From assembly GCA_003104975.1 (NCBI GenBank), contig PQAM01000006.1, positions 62,001-126,000 on the forward strand: a stretch of DNA of 64,000 nucleotides, read 5' to 3'. Every line of letters starts with the position of its first letter. The stretch's first letter is position 1. The translations under genes were made by a program, and so were the position numbers. Source of the DNA: Candidatus Methylomirabilota bacterium. GTDB taxonomy: Bacteria; Methylomirabilota; Methylomirabilia; Methylomirabilales; Methylomirabilaceae. The notes under the pieces were generated by a model, which was not told the origin of the DNA, ran no database searches, and saw only the letters and a list, made by a program, of their open reading frames with translations. Below are positions 2,294 to 15,386 of this stretch, piece after piece.

Positions 2294-3373
2294 ATGCGCA
2301 TTGGAATTATTGGACTACCGGCCTCCGGCAAGAGCACCGTATACCGGCTGCTGACCCACGGCCAGCCAAGCCACCAGATCGGCCAGTTGGGTGAGGCGTC
2401 TATCGCGGTCGTCAAGGTCCCCGATCCCCGCCTCGAGCGCCTGGCGCAGATGTTCCAGCCGAAAAAGGTCACACCGGCCAACTTTGAGATCGTCGACTTC
2501 GCTCCGCTCGCCAAGGAGACGGGCAAGCCCACGAGCCCCGGCACGCAGCTCCTCCCCCAGATGCGGCAGAGCACGGCACTCCTCATGGTGGTTCGCGCTT
2601 TCAAGGATGAGCGAGTTCCCCACATCGAGGGGCGGGTCGATCCGGTCACGGACGCGGCGACACTGTGGGCTGAGTTGGTATTGGCCGATCTGGATGTCGT
2701 GGAAAAACGAATCGCCAAGATCGAAGAGACGCTGCGAAAAGGAAAAAAGACAGAAAACCCTCAGGAACTATCCCTTTTGAAGCGGTGCTATGCGGCGCTG
2801 CAGGAGGAACAGCCGTTGCGGGGAATGTCGCTCACCGCCGAAGAGGAGCGGCTGCTGCGCGGCTTTCAGTTCCTGACGGCTAAGCCGAGTCTTCTGGTGG
2901 TCAATATCGATGAAGAGACCGCCGGTGGATCAGCCGACTCTGGGGCCGTACCGACGCCGGAACGCTCCAGGCCGACCTCGATTGCGATCGCGGCCAAGCT
3001 GGAGTTGGAGCTGGCCGATCTTCCGCCAGAGGACGCGAAGGCCTTCTGCGCCGAACTCGGAATCGAGACCCTCGCGGCGCCCCGACTACGCCAGGCCTGC
3101 TATGACCTGCTGAGTGTCATGACCTTCTTTACGGTGGGAAGCGACGAGGTGAGGGCCTGGACGATTCCCCTCCGCGCGACGGCCCTGCAGGCGGCAGGGG
3201 CGATCCACAGCGATCTTGCGCAGGGCTTCATCAGGGCCGAGGTCGTCGCCTATGACGCGCTCATCCGCTGCGGGTCGCTGGCGGCAGCCCGTCACCAAGG
3301 CCTGCTCCGTCTTGAGGGCAAGGAGTACCTCGTCACCGACGGCGACATCATGACGATCCGCTTCAATGTCTGA
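2294..3373 (+). CDS. ychF: YchF/OLA1-family ATPase-GTPase (divergent form)
   Basis: 360 residues, the usual YchF length. The P-loop GLPASGKST at about residues 7-15 is followed by a nucleotide-specificity NIDEE region. The C-terminal TGS domain includes FFTVGSDEVRAW, GFIRAEVVAYDAL and DGDIM. The P-loop differs from the common GLPNVGKST, so this is probably a divergent YchF subfamily member. YchF acts in ribosome association and stress responses. The ATG at 2294 is chosen because it opens MRIGIIGLP and has an AAGGA at 2281-2285; the earlier in-frame ATG lies inside a repeat. A 3' scrap of a second ychF copy lies at 4509-4564. Confidence 0.9.
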   Translation: MRIGIIGLPASGKSTVYRLLTHGQPSHQIGQLGEASIAVVKVPDPRLERLAQMFQPKKVTPANFEIVDFAPLAKETGKPTSPGTQLLPQMRQSTALLMVVRAFKDERVPHIEGRVDPVTDAATLWAELVLADLDVVEKRIAKIEETLRKGKKTENPQELSLLKRCYAALQEEQPLRGMSLTAEEERLLRGFQFLTAKPSLLVVNIDEETAGGSADSGAVPTPERSRPTSIAIAAKLELELADLPPEDAKAFCAELGIETLAAPRLRQACYDLLSVMTFFTVGSDEVRAWTIPLRATALQAAGAIHSDLAQGFIRAEVVAYDALIRCGSLAAARHQGLLRLEGKEYLVTDGDIMTIRFNV

Positions 3374-4279: not shown

Positions 4280-4508
4280 GGTTGTTTCCTCCTATACGAT
4301 ACACACAATCCTCAGAACAACGGGGTCGGGATGTCCCCCGTATAATCGAGATGGAGCTAGAACGGTTCAAATCGTCTATAGCTACCAGGGGTGCCCGAAG
4401 ATGCTGGCGTGGAATACCACCACTTTTAATAATACGCCGTAAGTGTCGAAATGACCATCAGGTGAACGCCTGAAGGGATGGAGGGACATTTTTTGAGAGA
4501 AACGGCGA

Positions 4509-4564
4509 GTCGAGGTCGTGACCTACGAGGCGCTCATCCGCTACGGGTCACTGGCGGCGGCCGG
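4509..4564 (+). pseudogene. ychF 3'-end scrap (TGS-domain fragment)
   Basis: Over 56 bp this matches ychF 3236-3291, with 9 mismatches by hand count, mostly at third codon positions. It can be read VEVVTYEALIRYGSLAAAG, against AEVVAYDALIRCGSLAAAR in the intact protein. The match stops abruptly at both ends. The pattern of synonymous changes shows it derives from a diverged, once-functional ychF copy rather than a recent duplication. The YgjP-like gene on the other strand takes its last codons and stop from this scrap, so the scrap marks the left edge of the R-M block. Confidence 0.8.
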
Positions 4565-4895
4565 CCGTTCCATGGAGCGACCTGGTCTGTGAGATCTTTT
4601 CCAACCGCTCTGCTATGGATTCGTAGTCGCCCAGATGCGCCCGCATCAGGCTCTTCCAGAGCTTGCCGTGGTTCGGGACGGAGAAATGCAGGAGTTCATG
4701 GACGATCACGTAGTCGCCAATCCTGCGGTCCAATGCCAGTAACTCGGTGTTGAAGTTCAGATTTCCCGCCGTAGAGCACGACGCCCACTTATTGCGCATC
4801 GGGCGCAGAGCCAGCGCCCGTGTTTTCACGCCCAACTTGTCGACCCACACCAGCACGCGGGCCTTGAACTCCTCCTTGTCGCGCCAAGCACTCAT
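4548..4895 (-). CDS. YgjP-like (DUF45) zinc metallopeptidase of the R-M island
   Basis: 115 residues. WASCST and IVHELLHFSVPNHGKLW show the HExxH zinc motif with a downstream H, as in DUF45/YgjP metal-dependent proteases, which commonly sit next to type I hsdR genes. The protein is shorter than free-standing YgjP (about 165 residues) and seems to lack the N-terminal part. It overlaps hsdR by 4 bp (ATGA), so translation is coupled. The C-terminal residues (GTAGRRQ) are encoded in the antisense strand of the ychF scrap, so the native C-terminus is probably replaced. Confidence 0.85.
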   Translation of the reverse strand: MSAWRDKEEFKARVLVWVDKLGVKTRALALRPMRNKWASCSTAGNLNFNTELLALDRRIGDYVIVHELLHFSVPNHGKLWKSLMRAHLGDYESIAERLEKISQTRSLHGTAGRRQ

Positions 4896-7834
4896 GGGCG
4901 GAAGCTCTTGTGCAGCAGGATGAAGAGCGCGTCAACGGTCGCCGTCACCTTGGCCATGTCGTCCTCTTCGGCGAAGATGGCGAACGTCACCTGTTTGCGC
5001 ACCTCTCGCAGCTCCGCCTCGCTCCGTTGCCAGTTCGGGAACGTTGCGAACGCCGCGCGCACCTTCTTGCTCACCGACTCAGGGTTCTGAATGCCGTCAT
5101 CGGTCAGCTTGCACAGCACGAAATAGGTCAGCCCATCCAGCCCTCTGGCAGCCTGATCCTTCTTCCGCTGCTCATTCTTCTCGATCTCCTGCAAGAGTTC
5201 GGCGAGGGCGGCAGCAGTGCTGGTCTGCCGATCCTCGAAGCTTTCCTGCACCGCTTTGGCGCGCTCCGAAAGCGCCACGAGGAACGGATCGTCGCTCTGC
5301 TCTTCCGCGGTCCTCGCAATAGCCTTGACCAGGTTGATGATCTTGGTGGCCTGTCCATCCTCCCGGTTCTTAATGGTGTCGATCGCATCGGCATCCAGCA
5401 TGACGTACTTCGACACCCGGTCGCTGACGGCCGCGCCGATGCGACGCTGCACCAGTTCGTTGGTTTTCTTCTGGAAACCGCGGTCCACATACACGCGGCG
5501 CGCGTACGCGTTACGCACCACCTCGTAGATGCCGGACAACGTGGCGTAATGTTCGATGAACGGCCGGAGGAACGCATCTGGCGAGATGATCTCGTAGAGC
5601 ATCTCGATCTCTTTGTATTCCTTAAAGAACTCCTTCCGCCGCTCCTTGTCGCGAAAGTGTTCGATCAGGTTGTCCACATCCTTGTCGTTGAAGTTCTGCG
5701 TCACCAGCGTGAGATACGCCGGCGCCTTCGTCTCCATCTTGGCCTTGAAGAGGTGCTTGAGCAGTCCCAGATCCTTGACGATGGCGTTGATCTCGTCGCT
5801 GTCAAAGGCCAGCGCCTTCTCCAACTTGTCGAAGATGCCCACAAAATCGAGGACGAACCCGTGCGGCTTTACCATCTCTTCCGCTTCGTTCTCATAGGGC
5901 CGATTCACCCGCGCGATGGCCTGGAGCAACGTGTGGTCGCGCATCGGCTTGTCCAGATACATCGCATACAGGATCGGCGCGTCGAAGCCGGTCAGCAGCT
6001 TTTCAGTGACGATGAGAATCTTCGGCCATTCGTCAACCTTCATGAAATCCTTGCGAATCTGCCGCTCCCGCTTCGGATCGAGATGCCACTTCTTCAGGTG
6101 GGGCGGGTCGTTGTGGTTGCCGGTGAAGACGATCTCGGAATAGTTCGGCGGCAACATCGCGTCCAGCGCCTCCTTGTAGAACGCGCAGGCCTCGCGGTCC
6201 ACGGCCACAAGGAACGCCTTGTAACCGAGCGGTTCGATGTTATCGCGAAAGTGATCCGCTACCATCCGCGCCACCTGCTTCACCCGCTCCTTGCCCTTGA
6301 GGAAATTCTTCAGGTTCACCGCCCGTTCGAGAATCCTGTTCAGCTCCTCGATGTCCGCGATCCCTTCGGTCTCGGCCAGTGCCAGGAACTCCTTTTCCAT
6401 GATCGCGTGGGGCACCAGCATGTCGTTCGGCGCAAGTTGGTAATAGAGCGGCAAGGTCGTGCGGTCATCGATGCTCTCAGCGATGGAATACTTATGCAGG
6501 TAGCCCTTGTCGTCCTCGCAGCCGAACGTCTTGAACGTCCCCTTGCCGTAGGCCGTCTTATCCACCGGCGTGCCGGTGAAGCCGATGAAGGTCGCGTTGG
6601 GCAGACCCGCCATCAGGAAGTTGCCCAGGTCGCCGCCCGTCGTCCGGTGTGCCTCGTCAATAAGCACGTAGATGTTCTCCCGCAGGTTCAGGTTCGCGGG
6701 CATATCGCGGAACTTGTGGATCATTGTCACGATGATGCCCCGGTAATCGTCCCGCAGCAGCCGGTTCAACTTTGCGATGCTGTCGGCGTGCGTCACATTG
6801 CCCAGCCCCACCGACGCAAGATTCTTGAGCATCTGATCTTCCAACTCGTTGCGGTCGATCATGAAGAGGATGGTCGGCTTCTCGGCCTCCGGCGCTTTGA
6901 AGAGTATCTCCGCCGCCTTGATCATCGTGTACGTCTTGCCACTGCCCTGCGTGTGCCAGACCAGCCCGCGCGTGCGCTGCGGATCGAGCGTCCGCGCCAC
7001 CACCTTGTCAGTTCCCCCCATCTGATGCTGCATCAGGATGAACTTGTGCAGCTCCTCGTCTTTCTCCACGAACAGGATGAAATCCTTGAGCAGGCGCAGC
7101 ACCTGCGGCACAGCGCAAAAGCTTTTCACCTTGGCTTCGAGATTGCCCGCCTCCGTGTGCTTCCAGTTGAAAATGTTTCGCCGTACCGTGTTCCACGTCA
7201 CCCCGTAGGCGAACCCGATCGCTTCCGTGGCGGTGAAGATCATCTCGGGTACCATCACCTCCGGCGTCTCGTCGTGGTAACGGCGGAGTTGGTCCACCGC
7301 GAGCGCGAGCGCCTCGTCCTTGCTCGCATTCTTGCACTCGATCACCAGCACCGGGATGCCGTTGATGAGGAACACCACGTCCTCCCGCGTCCCGTAGCGG
7401 CCGTTGTGGACGTAAAACTCCTCCGTCACTTCATACGCGTTGCGCCACTGCTCGCGCGGGCGGGCGAGGTCGCCGTAATCGATCAGCGTCAGGTCCAGTT
7501 CCCGGCTCTCCTCGGCGCAGAAGAATTTGCCCTGGTTGCGCAGGTAGCTGAGGAGGTCGCGGTTGCCGGCGATATCCGTATTGAGCCGCTGGAACTCGCC
7601 GATCAGCGCGCCCTCGGCTTCTTTGTATTTCGGATTGAACGCGCGCACCTGAGCGTGGAGCAGATCGCCGAAATACAGCGATGCCGTCCGCGCACGGTCC
7701 TCTGGCGTCGCGCCATCGGGATCAAAACCCCGCCGCGCCTCGGCTTCGGCGCGGGGCACGTAGGTCCAGCCGATCTCCTGCGCATAACCGAGGATACGGG
7801 CCTGAACGGTTTTGTGTTCCGTGGGTGCGGGCAT
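4892..7834 (-). CDS. hsdR: Type I restriction enzyme subunit R
   Basis: 980 residues. The N-terminal PD-(D/E)xK nuclease has D152 in REDVV and E166-x-K168 in VIECKNA. The superfamily 2 motor has Walker A TQGSGKT (K300), a DEAH box at about 393-396, FTGTP, and the late motif VI region QAIARVNRP. Together with HsdM and HsdS it cleaves unmethylated foreign DNA after ATP-driven translocation. All core motifs are intact and the length is normal, so it is probably functional. It is separated from hsdS by the higB-higA module and a tiny ORF, and coupled by 4 bp to the downstream protease. Confidence 0.96.
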   Translation of the reverse strand: MPAPTEHKTVQARILGYAQEIGWTYVPRAEAEARRGFDPDGATPEDRARTASLYFGDLLHAQVRAFNPKYKEAEGALIGEFQRLNTDIAGNRDLLSYLRNQGKFFCAEESRELDLTLIDYGDLARPREQWRNAYEVTEEFYVHNGRYGTREDVVFLINGIPVLVIECKNASKDEALALAVDQLRRYHDETPEVMVPEMIFTATEAIGFAYGVTWNTVRRNIFNWKHTEAGNLEAKVKSFCAVPQVLRLLKDFILFVEKDEELHKFILMQHQMGGTDKVVARTLDPQRTRGLVWHTQGSGKTYTMIKAAEILFKAPEAEKPTILFMIDRNELEDQMLKNLASVGLGNVTHADSIAKLNRLLRDDYRGIIVTMIHKFRDMPANLNLRENIYVLIDEAHRTTGGDLGNFLMAGLPNATFIGFTGTPVDKTAYGKGTFKTFGCEDDKGYLHKYSIAESIDDRTTLPLYYQLAPNDMLVPHAIMEKEFLALAETEGIADIEELNRILERAVNLKNFLKGKERVKQVARMVADHFRDNIEPLGYKAFLVAVDREACAFYKEALDAMLPPNYSEIVFTGNHNDPPHLKKWHLDPKRERQIRKDFMKVDEWPKILIVTEKLLTGFDAPILYAMYLDKPMRDHTLLQAIARVNRPYENEAEEMVKPHGFVLDFVGIFDKLEKALAFDSDEINAIVKDLGLLKHLFKAKMETKAPAYLTLVTQNFNDKDVDNLIEHFRDKERRKEFFKEYKEIEMLYEIISPDAFLRPFIEHYATLSGIYEVVRNAYARRVYVDRGFQKKTNELVQRRIGAAVSDRVSKYVMLDADAIDTIKNREDGQATKIINLVKAIARTAEEQSDDPFLVALSERAKAVQESFEDRQTSTAAALAELLQEIEKNEQRKKDQAARGLDGLTYFVLCKLTDDGIQNPESVSKKVRAAFATFPNWQRSEAELREVRKQVTFAIFAEEDDMAKVTATVDALFILLHKSFRP

Positions 7835-7843
7835 CAGTCCGTC

Positions 7844-7954
7844 TTATCTCGAAAGCTCGCGATCATCCGCGACAATACCCAATGCGCGGGCCTTCGCCTG
7901 CAACGCATCCGCGTATGATGCAGGCCGGTGAAGGTTGTTCCATGTCTGGTTCAT
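7844..7954 (-). CDS. 36-residue ORF coupled to higA
   Basis: Encodes 36 residues beginning MNQTWNNLHRP. Its ATG overlaps the higA stop (ATGA, 7951-7954) and its stop lies 9 bp before hsdR, so it fits the tight spacing of the operon. No family is recognised. It may be a small regulator, a remnant of a longer gene, or simply chance coding in the linker. The evidence is positional only. Confidence 0.4.
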   Translation of the reverse strand: MNQTWNNLHRPASYADALQAKARALGIVADDRELSR

Positions 7955-8313
7955 AGTCGCTTGGTTGCGACGCGTTTGGTGCGATACGATGCGGCGGTTT
8001 CGGCCACGTGCGTCCCGGTCGTGTTCTCTTCCACATCGAATACGACGCGCACGCGGGCGTGCAGGACGCGGGCGATACGGCGCAGGGTGCTCAGGGAGTG
8101 GCCTTCGTAGTCGGGGGACTCCAGCCGGCTGATCTGCTGCTGGGAGGTCTTCAGAAGGCGGGCGAGGTCCTTCTGGGAAAGCCCGGCGCGCTGCCGGAGA
8201 GCGGCGAGTTGCAGTGCCACATCCCAAGCCTCGCCTGCGCGCTTAAAGCGGGCCGCAAACGCCGGATCCCGCATCTGCTCTTCCAGGTAACGGTCGAAAT
8301 TAGTCTTTTTCAT
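7951..8313 (-). CDS. higA: XRE/HigA-type antitoxin
   Basis: 120 residues starting MKKTNFDRYLEEQM. The helix-turn-helix LRQRAGLSQKDLARLLKTSQQQISRLES occupies about residues 38-66, typical of HigA-family antitoxins that neutralise HigB and repress the operon. The ATG at 8313 overlaps the toxin stop by 4 bp (ATGA). The toxin-first order is characteristic of higBA. An in-frame start further upstream would run through the toxin gene and is rejected. Confidence 0.9.
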   Translation of the reverse strand: MKKTNFDRYLEEQMRDPAFAARFKRAGEAWDVALQLAALRQRAGLSQKDLARLLKTSQQQISRLESPDYEGHSLSTLRRIARVLHARVRVVFDVEENTTGTHVAETAASYRTKRVATKRL

Positions 8314-8663
8314 GGTTTCATTCTTTCCTGCCAATCGGCCATCCGTCCCCGCCCAATGGTCAGGTCGCGGACCGGAATGCTCTGGCCCTTGGTGCGAATC
8401 CCATGCACCGCGACGATACGGCGACCCTTCATGAAGAACCACAGCACGCGGGTATTGAGTTTGCCCACATGCCGCAGTTCAAACAGCCCGCCGCCGAGCG
8501 GCTTGGATAGCGGCTCCCGATGGTACCGCCGGTCCCGCAGTTTTGCCAGCCCCGCGATTACCGCCGCAAAGTCCCCCGGGTCGCTGGCCTTGAGATCGTC
8601 AAGGAACTCCTGCACGGGGCGCTTCCCCGCCTGTGTCTCATAAAACTCTACGGTAAAGTCCAT
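8310..8663 (-). CDS. higB: HigB-like toxin (RelE/ParE superfamily, Gp49-like)
   Basis: 117 residues. KRPVQEFLDDL, KPLGGGLFELRH, RVLWFFMKGRRIVAVHGIRTKGQ match phage-derived Gp49-like/HigB toxins, ribosome-dependent mRNA endonucleases. It is immediately followed by the XRE antitoxin with a 4-bp overlap. The pair sits inside the type I R-M operon between hsdS and hsdR, where a toxin could punish loss of the island or respond to R-M failure (inference). Confidence 0.9.
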   Translation of the reverse strand: MDFTVEFYETQAGKRPVQEFLDDLKASDPGDFAAVIAGLAKLRDRRYHREPLSKPLGGGLFELRHVGKLNTRVLWFFMKGRRIVAVHGIRTKGQSIPVRDLTIGRGRMADWQERMKP

Positions 8664-8842
8664 GGCTGTGCAACATTATTATTGATGTATTCGCACGGCA
8701 CGTCGTGCCGCCGTCACCCGCAGCAGACCGTCAATCAGAATCCGCTCGCCGGTCGGGATGGCAATCTCGCCGAACTTTACTCATGGCAGCATGTCTTCCG
8801 GCAGGTGGAGGAGGTGACAATATCGCGTTGTGTGGACATGGA

Positions 8843-10156
8843 TCAGTCCCTGGTGAGTTGCTCCAGCTCAGGCAGGTCGAGGTCGTGGACCCGAAGCTGC
8901 GCCGTCATCAACTGATGCAGCAGGGTGCGGAAGAGGGCGGTGAGGGCTACGTATTTGCTTTGATGGAATACCATCTTCTTGTCCGCGGCGCTCAGGCACT
9001 CAACGATTTCATCTTGCTCGGCCCTGCTGGGCTGTGGAAGCTGTAGCATCTTGAGCTGAACCTCAGGAAGGTGGGCAATGGTTGAACTGGCTCCGGCGAC
9101 TCCGTAGAGGTCTTGATAACGCAGGGCAAACTCCAGCCAGTAGGCGAGGAACTCGTTGCTGGCATTCTCGGATTTTGGGCGGAGGCGGTGAAGTGCTTTC
9201 TGGTAATAGCACTCTTTCACGTCCCCGTGCCAAATGGCGGCACGTCCTGGCTCGCCGCCTTCACAGATGAGTAGATCGCCAGGAACGAGAATAAATTTCC
9301 CGCGCTCACGTTCATTGAAGCCCATCGAAAGCAGGTCGGTGGTGTCGATGGCTCCCCACTGGACATTCTTATTCCTCAGGTAAGGCTTCGGGTCGCCTCC
9401 CTTGCGAGCCTTCTGGGAGAGCATCTTCCCAAGTTGGGTATAAAATAGAGTGGCGAGTGGTCCGACCTCCCAACTCTCCGGTACAAGACCGATTTCCGTT
9501 TCTTTCTGGGGTTCGCCGCGGAGGCCGGCGGTGAAGAGTTGGTGCAGGAGCGCCTTTTTCAGTTCGGCGGTCAGCGCCAGCAGCCGCTCCTGCTGCTCCA
9601 TCGCCCGCTGCACCACCCCCAACACCCCCGCGATCTTCCGCTGCTCAAGAAGCGGAGGAACGGGCAGGGGAAGTTCACAGAGCTTGGACTGCGAAAGGTT
9701 GGGAATCGTGGTAACGTTGCCGCGTCCGAAATAGACGCTGCCAATCTCAAACGCATACCAGAGCCAATAGAGCGCGAACTGGGAATCCGCAGCACCTTTA
9801 TCCCGGAGACGGGCGCGATGGAGATGGTTTTGGTAGTAGCACCGAGGCAGTGTATCGTTCCAGATGGCAGTTCGCCCAATGTCACCGCCCTCGCACACCA
9901 GAAGGTCGCCTGGGTGCAGAGCTAGCCGCTTTTCCTCCGCCTCGGTGAAGTGCATCTCGTCGAGGTCCGACAGGTCTACTGCACCCCAAAAGACATTCTT
10001 GGTGCGAAGGAACGGTCGCTGGTTTTCGCCGATGCGATTCGTCCTGGAGACCTGCTTCCCTTGCTGCACGGCAAAGAGCGAATCGAACCGCTGGACTGGC
10101 CAGTGCGCCGGAAGTTCACCGAGTTCAGTTGAGGTGACCGAATCCATTTCAGACAT
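8843..10156 (-). CDS. hsdS: Type I restriction-modification specificity subunit S
   Basis: 437 residues with two target-recognition domains and two conserved coiled-coil spacers. Each TRD begins with a related motif: FLRTKNVFWGAVDLSDL near residue 50 and YLRNKNVQWGAIDTTDL near residue 260. The spacers contain LLEQRKIAGVLGVVQRAMEQQ and the matching SRAEQDEIVECLSAADKK. The two TRDs look like paralogues, so the target may be a near-symmetric bipartite site (inference). The ATG at 10156 overlaps the DUF1016 gene by 8 bp; longer N-terminal forms would be out of character. The protein gives sequence specificity to HsdM and HsdR. Confidence 0.93.
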   Translation of the reverse strand: MSEMDSVTSTELGELPAHWPVQRFDSLFAVQQGKQVSRTNRIGENQRPFLRTKNVFWGAVDLSDLDEMHFTEAEEKRLALHPGDLLVCEGGDIGRTAIWNDTLPRCYYQNHLHRARLRDKGAADSQFALYWLWYAFEIGSVYFGRGNVTTIPNLSQSKLCELPLPVPPLLEQRKIAGVLGVVQRAMEQQERLLALTAELKKALLHQLFTAGLRGEPQKETEIGLVPESWEVGPLATLFYTQLGKMLSQKARKGGDPKPYLRNKNVQWGAIDTTDLLSMGFNERERGKFILVPGDLLICEGGEPGRAAIWHGDVKECYYQKALHRLRPKSENASNEFLAYWLEFALRYQDLYGVAGASSTIAHLPEVQLKMLQLPQPSRAEQDEIVECLSAADKKMVFHQSKYVALTALFRTLLHQLMTAQLRVHDLDLPELEQLTRD

Positions 10157-11258
10157 GCAAAGCCACCCCATACTGCACCTGCTGTTCCCGCACCACCAGC
10201 GCCCGTTCCCGCTCCAGCTCCTGACGCAGCGCTTCCTCCGTCGGCAGATAGAGCATGTATTTCGAGGCAAAGAGTTGGCGACTCTCGTTGAGCACGGAAT
10301 ACTTCACTACCGTATGGTCTTTCTCCGTGCAGAGGATGATGCCGACAGTGGGGTTGTCGTCCGCGCTCTTCACTGTCTCTTCGAACAGGCGCACGTACAT
10401 GTCCATCTGGCCGATGTCCTGGTGGGTCAGTTCGCCGATTTTCAGATCGATCAGGACGAAGCATTTCAGGATGTAGTTGTAGAACACCAGATCGACGAAG
10501 AAGTCCTTGGTCTCGGTGCTGATGCGCTGCTGCCGGGCGACGAAGGCGAAGCCCTTGCCGAGTTCGAGCATGAAGGCCTGGAGCTTGCCGATGATGGCCT
10601 GTTCGAGTTCAGATTCGCGGAACTCATGCGAACCCGGAATGCCGAGAAACTCAAGGACGTAGGGGTCTTTGATGAAGTCCTGTGGCGTGGGGGCAAGCGC
10701 GCCGGTCTTCTGTTGCATTTCCTCGGTGACCGCCGCCTTGTCTCGGCTTATCAACAGGCGTTCGTAGTAGAGGGAGTTGATCTGCCGTTCCAGCGTGCGG
10801 GTGCTCCAACTCTGTTCGGCAGCCTCCTTCAGGTACCACGCGCGGGCGGCTTCGTTTTCGACCCGTATGAGCAATTTATAGTGGGTCCACGTCAATTCTC
10901 TCCGCAGTGCGGAGAGCATTGGAAAGCACTGGTAATACTGGCGCATATTCCACAGGCTTGGCTCCGAAAAACCCCGCCCAAACTCATTGGACAAACGGAT
11001 AGCAAGATTTTGGATCAGAAATGCCCCGTATTCCGCCCGTTCCTTGCCCTGCTGTTCCTCCTCGACAATCATCCGGCCAATATTCCAATAGGCCTCGACC
11101 ATGGTGAAGTTGACAGCCCGATATGCTTTGGCGCGGGAGGTGCGGAGGACTTCTGCGATGGACTCATAGAATTCGTGATGCAGTGCGTCCCGAATGGGTA
11201 CCCCTGATTTATTGCCAGTCGTTCGCGGGACTATGGCCGGTTTCTTCCTTTTCGTCAT
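10149..11258 (-). CDS. DUF1016 (YhcG-type) PD-(D/E)xK nuclease-domain protein
   Basis: 369 residues. The N-terminal domain contains EAYWNIGRMIVEEEQQGKERAEYG and GFSEPSLWNMRQYY. The C-terminal PD-(D/E)xK-like region has FFVDLVFYN...VLIDLKIGELTHQDIGQMDMYV. This is the DUF1016/YhcG family, nucleases repeatedly found embedded in type I R-M operons, with no settled role. It overlaps hsdM by 4 bp and hsdS by 8 bp, so it is translated in fixed stoichiometry with them. The motif ends in D-L-K rather than the usual E-x-K. Confidence 0.92.
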   Translation of the reverse strand: MTKRKKPAIVPRTTGNKSGVPIRDALHHEFYESIAEVLRTSRAKAYRAVNFTMVEAYWNIGRMIVEEEQQGKERAEYGAFLIQNLAIRLSNEFGRGFSEPSLWNMRQYYQCFPMLSALRRELTWTHYKLLIRVENEAARAWYLKEAAEQSWSTRTLERQINSLYYERLLISRDKAAVTEEMQQKTGALAPTPQDFIKDPYVLEFLGIPGSHEFRESELEQAIIGKLQAFMLELGKGFAFVARQQRISTETKDFFVDLVFYNYILKCFVLIDLKIGELTHQDIGQMDMYVRLFEETVKSADDNPTVGIILCTEKDHTVVKYSVLNESRQLFASKYMLYLPTEEALRQELERERALVVREQQVQYGVALHV

Positions 11259-12835
11259 ACGCCTATCCTTGCAAGTATCGCTTTTAAGGTACGGTCTGTC
11301 TCTTTGGCCTCATCATCCAGCGCATTCAGTTCCTCCACAATCTCCGCAATCGGTCGGTATTCGTCGGCTTCGCCCGTGTGGATGTAGCGGCTGGGCGAGA
11401 TGTTGAAATCGTTCTTGGCAATCTCCTCGCGATCGACGATGCGGGAGTATTTCTCCACTTCCTTCCATGCGGTGAAGGTGTCGGCGATGCGGTGGATGGC
11501 GTCGGCGGGGATGTAGTTCTTCGGATCGCCCTTAGCGAAATCGCGGCTGGCGTTGAGCAGGAAGAGCTTTTCCGTTCGCTCCTTCGGCTTGGCCCGGTTC
11601 AGCACGAGGATGATACCTGGGGCGGTGGTGTTGTAGAAGAGGTTTTCCGGCAGATAGATAACACCCTCGATGAGGTCCTGCTCCACGAACCAGCGGCGCA
11701 CATCTTTTTCCTTGTTGGTGTTGGCATTGCCGGAGCCGCGCGAGGCGGCGCCGGTGTCGAGCACCACGGCGGCGCGACCCTGCGGATTCAGGCTGGCGAG
11801 GATGTGTTGCACCCAGCCCCAGTCGGCCTTGCCGCCGGGGAAGCCCGCGCTCTTGGGGAAGCGGTCGAGTTCGTCGGCGTCGTAGTCCTTTTCTTTGAAC
11901 TCGGTCTGGTTCCACATCGGATTGGCCACGGCGCGATCGAACGTCTGAAGACGATTACCCTGACGGAATTTGGGATTGCGGAAGGTGTCGCCGATCTGAA
12001 TCTCGCCCTCCATGTCGTGGATGATCATGTTCATGTTGGCCATGGCCCAGGTACCCGGCTCCTGTTCCTGGCCGTAGAGCTTGAGCGGCGCATAGCGCCG
12101 ACTCTCACCCCCAGAGGGAGAGGAGAGTTGGTACGCGCGCTTTTTCGCGTCCAGCGCCAGCTCACACTTGATGAGCAGGCCGGCGGAGCCGCAGGTGGGA
12201 TCGTACACGCTCATGCCGGGCTGCGGGTCCATGATGAGCGCCATGATCTCGCCCACCTCGCCGGGGGTGTAGAACTCGCCCGCGCTTTGCCCGCCGCCCT
12301 CCGCGAACTTGCGGATGAGGTATTCATAGCTGCGCCCGATGATGTCGCCCTCAACGTCGGTCAGCCCGAGCTGCTTGGCGCTGATGGACTCGATGAGGTT
12401 GCTCAGCCGGGCGTCGTCAATGTCGCGCTGGCCGTGGGTGGTGGCGTTGAAATCAATGCGGTCGATGATGCCCTTGAGCAGCGGATTGGCGTCGGCGATG
12501 GCCCGGAGGTAGGTGGTGAGCTGCTCGCCGATCTTGTCCGAGAGCGTGCGGATGACAGACCAGACGGCGTCGTCGGGGTTCTTCGGCTCCAGCGGGAGGT
12601 AGAAGCGGACGAGTTTCTTGTCGTGCTTGACGAGCTTGAACGCCTTGGCCCGCGATCCGACTTCCTGGGCGATGCGGTTTAGTTCGTCATCGAAGACATC
12701 GCAGAGGCGTTTGGCAAAGATGAGCGGGAGGATGAACTCTTTGTATTTAGGCGCGTCCTTGGCGCCGCGGATGGAACAGGCGGCGTCCCAGATCCAGGAT
12801 TCGAGCGATTTGTCGTTGCTCTTACCGTTGGCCAT
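11255..12835 (-). CDS. hsdM: Type I N6-adenine DNA methyltransferase subunit M
   Basis: About 526 residues. An HsdM N-terminal helical domain is followed by EFYTPGEVGEIM, SAM-binding YDPTCGSAGLL near 213-223, and the catalytic motif IV as NPMWNQ near 308 (NPPY/F in most family members). The ATG at 12835 is preferred; a TTG two codons upstream is closer to the AAAGGG and cannot be excluded. It is the first gene of the R-M operon and is coupled to DUF1016 by ATGA. An unusual stretch near residues 237-251 is encoded by a palindromic repeat (see that entry). Confidence 0.95.
   Translation of the reverse strand: MANGKSNDKSLESWIWDAACSIRGAKDAPKYKEFILPLIFAKRLCDVFDDELNRIAQEVGSRAKAFKLVKHDKKLVRFYLPLEPKNPDDAVWSVIRTLSDKIGEQLTTYLRAIADANPLLKGIIDRIDFNATTHGQRDIDDARLSNLIESISAKQLGLTDVEGDIIGRSYEYLIRKFAEGGGQSAGEFYTPGEVGEIMALIMDPQPGMSVYDPTCGSAGLLIKCELALDAKKRAYQLSSPSGGESRRYAPLKLYGQEQEPGTWAMANMNMIIHDMEGEIQIGDTFRNPKFRQGNRLQTFDRAVANPMWNQTEFKEKDYDADELDRFPKSAGFPGGKADWGWVQHILASLNPQGRAAVVLDTGAASRGSGNANTNKEKDVRRWFVEQDLIEGVIYLPENLFYNTTAPGIILVLNRAKPKERTEKLFLLNASRDFAKGDPKNYIPADAIHRIADTFTAWKEVEKYSRIVDREEIAKNDFNISPSRYIHTGEADEYRPIAEIVEELNALDDEAKETDRTLKAILARIGV
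12101..12131. repeat. Palindromic repeat inserted in frame within hsdM
   Basis: The bases CTCTCACCCCCAGAGGGAG and the flanking GAGGAGAG form the dispersed CCCTCTCCCTCTGGG / GGGTGAGAG repeat style, normally intergenic. A related copy lies at 52728-52770. Here it is translated as part of hsdM (residues about YQLSSPSGGESR), just before the conserved LKLYGQE block, where HsdM relatives normally have a short linker. The reading frame stays open, so the repeat looks tolerated in a surface loop. Confidence 0.65.
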
Positions 12836-12841
12836 CGTCAA

Positions 12842-13161: not shown

Positions 13162-13275
13162 CTATTCAGACTTGCCTTTCAGGACCAGACGGATGGGTGT
13201 GCCGACGAAGCCGTAGGCGGCGCGGAGTTGGTTGACCAGATAGCGCCGGTAGGGGGAACCCGGACAGCGCGCGTA
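13162..13275 (-). pseudogene. der 3'-end scrap
   Basis: On the minus strand this reads YRRYLVNQLRAAYGFVGTP then IRLVLKGKSE and stop (stop at 13162-13164). It is clearly the C-terminal KH-like end of a Der GTPase. The intact der in this window has the same block, ending VLKPKESRAGS. Differences are mainly at third codon positions, and the homology dissolves with an indel near 13255-13275. It is therefore a diverged copy carrying its own natural stop, lying on the right edge of the R-M block. Confidence 0.85.
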
Positions 13276-13355: not shown

Positions 13356-13625
13356 TCATGTAGGCAACATTTCTACGCTTGCTGTCGCGGCAACCGGTTG
13401 ACTTTCCAGGTAGAGCGTGTCGTAGCTCAGATCTAACCCACCGGGCCATTCTACCGATCCAGCAACCACCCGTGCCGCTTGAAATACAGCGCGATTTTGC
13501 AAACGGACGAAGATACCGCGATGCAAATACGGCTTCGCATCGAACATCCGGAGCTCGCCGTTTTCAAACAATATCTCCAGCCGGTAATCGTCCAGCGGAC
13601 GGATGTGCTTAATATAGGGACTCAT
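13356..13625 (-). CDS. DUF2442 protein
   Basis: 89 residues: IKHIRPLDDYRLEILFENGELRMFD, then a PYL block and GLDLSYDTLYLES. This is the DUF2442 family, small beta-rich proteins usually paired with DUF4160. AGGAGG lies 7 bp before the ATG at 13625, which is 9 bp after the DUF4160 stop. The pair behaves like a mobile two-gene module and has been suspected to be toxin-antitoxin-like, without proof. It lies between the der scrap and intact der. Confidence 0.85.
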   Translation of the reverse strand: MSPYIKHIRPLDDYRLEILFENGELRMFDAKPYLHRGIFVRLQNRAVFQAARVVAGSVEWPGGLDLSYDTLYLESQPVAATASVEMLPT

Positions 13626-13634
13626 GGACGCCTC

Positions 13635-13904
13635 CTATTTCAATGGTTCAATCTTGAACACCTCTTCACCGATCACGGCCAATTGCCAGTCAGCCAGCAG
13701 TTCCTCGCGGTGGATCTCGATCCATGCTTGCACCAGTCGAGCCTTTCCAGCCGGCAGCGTTCCAGCCAACACCTCACCATCGTCAATGCTGAATACAGCC
13801 AGATTTCCGGCGTACTCGGCGTGCAAATGGGGTACGTGATGTTGTTTGTTATCAAAGAAATACATGCGAATGACGATGCCGTAGAACATGGCCAGAATTG
13901 GCAC
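13635..13904 (-). CDS. DUF4160 protein
   Basis: 89 residues: MPILAMFYGIVIRMYFFDN, HVPHLHAEYAGNLAVFSIDDG and the late WIEIHREELLADW are diagnostic of DUF4160. The family start MPxxxxFYGIVI fixes the initiation codon as GTG at 13904, supported by AAGGGAG 8 bp upstream. It is the first gene of the two-gene module with DUF2442. The conserved histidines (HHVPHLH) suggest metal or nucleic-acid chemistry, but no activity is established. Confidence 0.85.
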   Translation of the reverse strand: MPILAMFYGIVIRMYFFDNKQHHVPHLHAEYAGNLAVFSIDDGEVLAGTLPAGKARLVQAWIEIHREELLADWQLAVIGEEVFKIEPLK

Positions 13905-14057
13905 GGCATTTCTCCCTTACATGATCACAAGCCGTTGTCGTCCATCTACTGATGGGTACAACGCTTTCAGATGTGAGTAGGCTGGTTGCCCTGTAACGCC
14001 TTAGGCGCTCCACGGAATATCGAGATTGTCCCGCCGTTCCTGGACACTGTCAAGTCT

Positions 14058-15386
14058 TCAGGAACCGGCCCTACTTTCTTTGGGCTTCAGGACCAGGCGG
14101 ATGGGGGCGCCGACAAAGCCGTAGGCGGCGCGAAGTTGGTTGACCAGATACCGCCGGTAGGGGACGCGGACGGCGCGCGGGTCGCTGACGAACAGCAGGA
14201 AGGTTGGGGGCGGCTTGGCGGCCTGCGTGGCGTAGTGAAACCGGACCGGCCGTTTGCCGTGAGCAGGCGGGGGGTACTTGGCAACCGCCTCGCCGATCAG
14301 TTCGTTGAGTTGGGGGGTCGGCACCCGATGGATGCGCGCCTGCGCGACGCTGTTCAGTAAGGGGAACAGTGTGGGTACGTGAAGGCCGGTTAATGCCGAC
14401 ACGCAGGCGATCGGCGCAAAGTCCAGATGGCGCAACTGTTCGCGGACCTCCAGGGTAAACTGTTGCCGGGCATCGGCGCCAGACGGCATCAGGTCCCACT
14501 TGTTTGCCACCAGGATTGCGCCGCAGCCGGTGTCCTGCACATAATCGGCGATCTTGGCATCCTGGTCGGTAATTCCGTCTTTCGCGTCCACCACGATCAG
14601 GGCGACATCGCTCCGCTCAATGGCCTTGAGCGCCCGCACCACGCTGAACCGCTCCAACGGCTGTTGAACCTTGCTGCGAGCTCGGAGTCCCGCCGTGTCG
14701 ATAAGAATATATGGCGTGTCGTTGTACGTGAACGGGGTGTCGATCGCATCTCTTGTGGTGCCGGGCTGCTCGCTCACGATGACGCGCTCCTGCCCCAGCA
14801 GCCGATTGACCAGCGAGGACTTGCCGACATTGGGGCGCCCGACCACCGCCACACGGATGGCCTTCTGCTCAGGCGCCACCTCTGCGGACGGCAGCGCCTC
14901 GACGATCACGTCGCAGAGTTCCGCGACACCCAGGCCGTGCTCGGCAGAGACCGGACAGAGCTGCTCGAATCCGACCCGAAAGAATTCGGCGGCCAACGCC
15001 TCGTGCGACGGCCGATCGACCTTATTCGGCGCCACGATGATGCGGGCCTGCACATCGTGTCGAAGCAGTCGGGCGATCTCTTCATCAAGCGGCGTCAGTC
15101 CCTCCCGGGCGTCGACCACAAAGATGACCAGGGCGGACGCCTGGACCGCCTGCCGGACCTGAGCCAGCACATGGGCCGCCAGGCCGCTTTCCGCGCCCGG
15201 TTCCAACCCCCCGGTATCACTGAGGGTGAATGTGCGGCCCCTCCATGCGACGGTCGCGTAGAGCCGGTCCCTGGTTACACCCGGTTGATCGTGCACGATC
15301 GCTTTTCGCTCGCCGACCAGTCGGTTGAAGAGGGTCGATTTCCCGACATTGGGCCGACCCACAATTGTTACGATAGGCAGAGACAT
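14058..15386 (-). CDS. der: Ribosome-assembly GTPase Der (EngA)
   Basis: 442 residues with the hallmark two tandem GTPase domains: GRPNVGKSTLFNRL at about 10-23 with DTGG and NKVD, and GRPNVGKSSLVNRL near 183 with DTAG and NKWD. A C-terminal KH-like domain ends YRRYLVNQLRAAYGFVG and IRLVLKPK. It is essential for 50S subunit maturation. It starts 3 bp after the upstream acyl-CoA synthetase gene. A diverged scrap of its 3' end lies at 13162-13275. Confidence 0.97.
   Translation of the reverse strand: MSLPIVTIVGRPNVGKSTLFNRLVGERKAIVHDQPGVTRDRLYATVAWRGRTFTLSDTGGLEPGAESGLAAHVLAQVRQAVQASALVIFVVDAREGLTPLDEEIARLLRHDVQARIIVAPNKVDRPSHEALAAEFFRVGFEQLCPVSAEHGLGVAELCDVIVEALPSAEVAPEQKAIRVAVVGRPNVGKSSLVNRLLGQERVIVSEQPGTTRDAIDTPFTYNDTPYILIDTAGLRARSKVQQPLERFSVVRALKAIERSDVALIVVDAKDGITDQDAKIADYVQDTGCGAILVANKWDLMPSGADARQQFTLEVREQLRHLDFAPIACVSALTGLHVPTLFPLLNSVAQARIHRVPTPQLNELIGEAVAKYPPPAHGKRPVRFHYATQAAKPPPTFLLFVSDPRAVRVPYRRYLVNQLRAAYGFVGAPIRLVLKPKESRAGS

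Follow-up and report, generated by a model that had tools for sequence, protein, structure and literature searches.

The window, by which we mean the whole 64,000-nucleotide stretch of DNA that was analysed, contains an intact der gene and a short scrap of a second der 3' end, which lies on the same strand, about 0.9 kb downstream of the part of der that it matches (Table 1). Translation of the scrap on the reverse strand gives PYRRYLVNQLRAAYGFVGTPIRLVLKGKSE, followed by a TAG stop codon; an earlier note on this DNA had recognized here the last 30 residues of the Der protein with their natural stop, in the orientation of der and adjoining an island of restriction-modification (R-M) genes, and all of this is borne out. 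A 2-nt insertion located just upstream of the 30 codons disrupts the reading frame. When the two DNA sequences are aligned, 86 of 96 nt are identical between the scrap and intact der, with a 2-nt gap (E = 4e-33), and an ungapped alignment gives 92% over 78 nt. Since a DNA search of the entire genome with the scrap returned the scrap itself and der and no other match, the resemblance is far beyond chance. At about 90% identity the scrap is not a recent, near-identical local duplication of der, as the earlier note had also held, and a divergence of about 10% implies either that the event is old or that the tail came from another species.

The interval between the two der tails is occupied by a pair of small neighbouring genes on one strand, 9 bp apart, the products of which both exceed the Pfam cut-offs for their respective families, DUF4160 and DUF2442. 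Counting from der, the order is the stop codon, 153 bp of spacer, the DUF4160 gene, the DUF2442 gene, about 80 bp and then the scrap, which is the far boundary of a 0.9-kb unit carrying a predicted DUF4160/DUF2442 toxin-antitoxin (TA) pair. The gene pair has a G+C content of 52.5%, compared with 64.3% for der and 63.2% for the scrap. A DUF4160/DUF2442 combination has been described as the TA pair dhiTA in Dickeya (PMC8198452), and in Thermus such a pair is described as affecting plasmid persistence (PMC12724237). The pair in the window shares with these the two Pfam families, the adjacent position and the common strand, and a TA function is predicted for it. The type I R-M genes lie beyond the scrap, with hsdM starting 320 bp past it, and are outside both der tails. 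Within the R-M set, the gene for the YhcG-type PDDEXK nuclease sits between hsdM and hsdS and overlaps hsdM by 4 bp, and a Gp49-like (HigB-type) gene together with an HTH gene is located between hsdS and hsdR.

Table 1. Positions in the window of the der copies, the TA unit, the R-M genes and the ychF fragment.
Feature	Position	Strand	Remarks
ychF fragment	4506..4562	+	residues 314-332, stop not reached; intact ychF at 2294-3373, same orientation
Type I R-M genes (whole set)	4892..12841	-	beyond the scrap, outside the TA unit
HsdR	4892-7834	-	type I R-M set
Gp49/HTH pair	7951-8663	-	type I R-M set
HsdS	8843-10147	-	type I R-M set
YhcG-like PDDEXK nuclease	10149-11258	-	type I R-M set
HsdM	11255-12841	-	type I R-M set
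der 3'-end scrap	13162..13275	-	final 30 codons of Der and TAG stop; 2-nt insertion upstream breaks the frame
DUF2442 gene	13356..13625	-	predicted antitoxin half of the pair; PF10387, E = 7.5e-12
DUF4160 gene	13635..13904	-	predicted toxin half of the DUF4160/DUF2442 pair; PF13711, E = 3.8e-24
Promoter-like TTGACA-17-GACAAT	14025..14053	-	between der stop and DUF4160; consensus match only
Intact der	14058..15386	-	442 aa; its tail (14086-14179) forms the repeat with the scrap

The same region was compared in 15 genomes of the genus, the genome of the window being G000. A full-length der is present in 13 of them (the gene is cut by a contig edge in G003, and G012 gave a weak der match only). 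Extra der tails are found behind der, on the same strand, in three of these 13 genomes, one each in G000 and G004 and two in G013, and the remaining ten have a single-copy tail. The four units defined in this way contain four TA-type pairs: DUF4160/DUF2442 in G000, HicA with a small ORF without a Pfam match in the HicB position in G004, and, in G013, Unstab_antitox/ParE in one unit and DUF4160/DUF2442 in the other. The scraps start no more than about 80 bp from the last TA stop codon and at differing codons of der (~366, 376, 380 and ~403). A class-wide Pfam search for the C-terminal domain of Der, which covered 95 genomes and gave a match in 88, detected a second such domain in the same three genomes and in G057, where it is encoded on another contig. 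We also considered a conserved promoter behind der tails; support for it is weak, as G013 has similar sequence after two of its three der tails, with 31-nt matches at E = 0.018.

The flanks of the G004 unit identify which of its two tails is native. The 74 nt behind the scrap are 79.7% identical to the der flanks of G008 and G014 (E = 6e-15) and also resemble those of G009, G006 and G010 over shorter stretches, and no match to the der flanks of the relatives was found in the sequence behind the intact gene. Because the native flank follows the scrap and not intact der, the scrap of G004 is the displaced native end of der. The sequence downstream of the scrap in the window matched no flank among the congeners and shows a short resemblance to the last tail of G013 only.

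Repeated tails of three further genes, namely pheS, a gene encoding a CBS-domain protein and ychF, also often surround TA pairs. Those of pheS occur in six of the 15 genomes (G004, G005, G009, G010, G012 and G013, with a weak match in G005, E = 9e-4). In G010, pheS is followed by HicA, HicB and a 93-bp pheS tail with stop codon, 95% identical to its counterpart; on contig C152 of this genome the pheS tail runs collinearly, at 90–92% identity over about 4 kb, into the region that lies behind pheS in G006, and the distal tail copy is the native one. A 474-bp piece made up of the end of HicB and the pheS tail is 94.7% identical between G010, where it is situated by the pheS flank, and G009, where it is situated away from pheS. 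G004 contains a 5'-truncated pheS copy that is 99.6% identical to intact pheS over 828 bp. For the CBS-domain gene there are three tails in G006 and three in G013, one of them of merely 10 codons, as well as three extra tails in G014 and one in G008.

The cargo is not of the TA type throughout. The ychF fragment in the window (52 nt, 86.5% identity) follows intact ychF at a distance of 1.1 kb, which holds two glyoxalase-family genes, and G007 also has a ychF fragment behind ychF; in neither case are TA genes enclosed, the intervening genes being glyoxalases and a methyltransferase/oxidoreductase set. At pheS, non-TA cargo is found in G004 (3 kb, with DUF4785), in the second unit of G013 (an alpha/beta hydrolase) and in the unit of G005 (an ORF of 347 aa with no Pfam match). 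By eye, the ~85 nt preceding four of the pheS tail scraps are alike (twice in G013 and once each in G005 and G012; loci L232, L233 and L230), and the cargo before these stretches differs where examined; a shared unit end is possible.

The order of the units changes between related species. At the CBS-domain gene, G013 and G008 have the same ParE unit immediately behind the tail of the gene itself, but in G006 and G014 this unit stands behind a scrap tail. Up to the end of the CBS-domain gene, G008 and G014 show 26 differences in 3600 positions, yet their arrays diverge right at the stop codon; the long second copies of this gene in the two genomes are identical to the last codons and then continue into different flanks. 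The two der scraps of G013 show 3 differences over the terminal 75 nt and 15 over 81 nt upstream (p = 0.005), a mosaic structure that is as expected if tails recombine. Sliding identity along the intact der genes of G000, G004 and G013 revealed no abrupt change and gave no clear sign of a tail more foreign than the remaining sequence.

The frequency of such repeats was estimated from the best 30 matches in the genus for each of DUF4160, BrnT, ParE and HicA (120 loci), a flanking repeat being defined as a direct repeat of at least 45 bp and at least 72% identity that lies around the TA gene within 900 bp. By this definition 19 of the 120 TA loci are flanked (three DUF4160, seven BrnT, four ParE and five HicA), as against 4 of 440 control tiles from G006, of which at least one is a TA locus already counted (Fisher p = 2e-10, this value and the one below being approximate because the tiles overlap, with step 800 and width 3200, and the genomes are few). 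Repeats of gene tails were found in 7 of 220 control tiles. The supposition that all flanking repeats are gene tails was rejected, as those at L088, L099, L109, L114, L117 and L166 are dispersed or intergenic. In a different family of the same class (f7), 7 of 30 HicA loci are flanked versus 2 of 264 tiles (p = 2e-6); the 3' end of a malic-enzyme gene is repeated there around HicBA as a 249-bp scrap with 94% identity and the same stop, and in two cases the repeats are the 5' ends of genes (one for a pyridine-nucleotide-disulphide oxidoreductase, the other for a TPP enzyme). Statistically, then, TA units bounded by tails are common in the genus and present in at least one other family of the class. 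Among 16 ParE loci from other families of the order, one is flanked. A sample of DUF4160 loci from many phyla yielded 8 flanked loci out of 80, versus 6 of 138 pseudo-centres, and a conserved-gene tail was found in none of the seven flanked loci examined; given these proportions, without conserved-gene ends, we do not claim generality beyond the class.

The comparison shows direct copies of gene tails on both sides of TA pairs, with the distal copy being native at der in G004 and at pheS in G010, and with units that are stacked and reordered. The best explanation, and one that we hold to be fairly probable, is that a TA module was inserted behind der with a long target duplication and that recombination between tails subsequently spread and reshuffled the units. 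The DUF4160/DUF2442 module would have entered just behind der in an ancestor, duplicating the last ~100 bp or more of the gene, such that one tail copy would complete the working der and the other, without a function, would persist as the scrap beyond the module. Recombination between the two tails could then cause the unit between them to be lost, moved or stacked, and would spare the host gene because each product ends in a complete tail; the stacked arrays, the changed order of units and the presence of a TA-plus-tail piece away from its gene all support this step. The first duplication might have arisen when the target was copied during insertion, or else a donor fragment might have brought the TA genes and the tail together, and both routes may operate. 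It is from the arrangement in present-day genomes that we infer the birth of the units by long target duplication and their later movement between tails.

The earlier note had proposed a different origin, in which the R-M island came from a donor lineage and brought along a foreign der tail that now marks its right edge. The divergence of the scrap, at 90% identity, and its position next to the R-M genes are in keeping with this proposal, and G013 too has a type I R-M methylase gene past its der tails. However, what lies between the two tails in the window is the TA pair and not the R-M set, and congeners show the der-TA-scrap layout with other TA pairs, G004 having HicA-type genes between its tails. 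The third-position differences that the note had pointed out identify no donor: over 75 nt the scrap is 90.7% identical to the genome's own der, to G013 and to G010, and 89.3% to G006 and to one of the G013 scraps, and no lineage scores better than the genome's own der. Identification of a donor by best match was rejected on account of this three-way tie, the scrap being no nearer to foreign lineages than to its own, and a tree of der tails placed the scrap without resolution. Nor does G013 speak for co-transfer with this particular R-M system, as its hsdM beyond the der tails is 36% identical to the window HsdM, and the R-M island was accordingly discarded as the mobile unit. Taken together, we consider this origin very unlikely, and a gene end that is cut short beside TA or R-M genes does not necessarily point to a foreign donor. 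The G013 methylase gene occupies positions 6432-8066 of locus L036; a defence hot spot may exist behind der.

Donor fragments could have contributed in another way, if they carried a TA pair along with the donor's own der or pheS end and recombined in by homology at the gene and by an illegitimate or single crossover at the other side, in which case the working tail would be the newcomer and the scrap would be native. Such a course of events is compatible with the native flank kept by the der scrap of G004, with the occurrence of the HicB and pheS-tail piece at two places in two species (G010 and G009) and with the mosaic within the G013 der scraps, and yet it appears to us rather unlikely, as the intact der tails of G000, G004 and G013 do not clearly stand out as foreign against the body of the gene, the two pheS copies of G004 are nearly identical, and duplicated gene 5' ends also occur (L253 and L276). 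The use of 5' ends argues as well against an integrase specific for 3' ends. Site-specific integration of this kind, by a recombinase that takes gene 3' ends as attachment sites and with elements that have lost their integrases, would account for the fairly constant boundary of the pheS scraps, most of which begin at codons 331–338, but the starts of the der scraps vary between codons ~366 and ~403, the CBS scraps range from 18 to 128, one pheS scrap is at ~93, and no recombinase family is represented among the scanned proteins from between the tails; we regard it as highly improbable. As for a plain local tandem duplication of the der end, between the copies of which a TA pair came to lie later by chance, it would yield the same layout in a single genome. 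We hold it to be very unlikely in view of the distribution, since extra der domains behind der are confined, among the 95 genomes of the class, to G000, G004 and G013, a TA-type pair is present between the tails in each of the four der units, and gene-tail repeats are rare in control tiles.

The recurring class of loci is best described as a variant of insertion with long target duplication in which the cargo is mostly TA. Insertion with long target duplication has been reported for R-M systems (Nobusato et al. 2000; Furuta et al. 2010; via PMC3874152 and PMC3031569). As far as these accounts describe them, the R-M insertions resemble the present units in that a small selfish gene set is enclosed between long direct copies of the target, variable in length and on the order of 100 bp (here 96 nt at 90% for der, 93 bp and 828 bp for pheS and 249 bp for the malic enzyme), and in that the direct repeats permit amplification or rearrangement. 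The differences are that the cargo here consists mostly of type II TA genes, the R-M genes in the window being outside both tails, that time and again it is a conserved gene whose end has been duplicated, that the units are stacked and reordered, and that the phylum is another one. A parallel for movement by recombination between tails is the 13-kb microcin H47 island of E. coli, which is bounded by imperfect direct repeats and encodes no recombinase; experiments have shown that it excises and integrates through several identical segments shared by the repeats (PMC3191183, PMC5426353); the units described here are TA units of about 1 kb, for which recombination is deduced from sequence. A search of titles and abstract openings, with subscription papers mostly outside its reach, found no description of TA pairs flanked by duplicated gene ends.

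The proposed insertion and tail recombination bear on the question of how TA pairs in chromosomes can relocate when neither a transposase nor an integrase is at hand. They would leave a recurring and readable footprint, that is, TA pairs placed between copies of the end of a neighbouring gene, stacked, and changed in order across related species, and they offer a simple explanation for the mobility and accumulation of TA pairs as well as a way to spot such insertions in any genome. A bolder proposal, which we advance tentatively, is that an integrase-free TA cassette system exists in the class, in which the ends of conserved genes (der, pheS, the CBS-domain gene, the malic-enzyme gene and others) serve as attachment sites, and ordinary recombination between gene ends allows units composed of TA genes and a gene end to leave one place and settle at another, the host gene being rebuilt at each step. 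If so, selfish pairs would shelter behind genes that the cell cannot lose.

Integron arrays consist of small gene units, often TA, that are arranged in tandem and in varying order, each with a repeat resembling a recombination site. The units at der and the other genes differ from them in that the repeated sequence is a housekeeping gene's coding end, stop codon included, and not attC, and no integron integrase or other integrase was detected among the proteins scanned, which came from between the tails and from the R-M region of the window. In one of the seven flanked DUF4160 loci examined above, L350 from a Pseudomonadales MAG, inspection by eye suggests that DUF2442 and HicAB-type TA genes lie between attC-like repeats in an apparent integron array.
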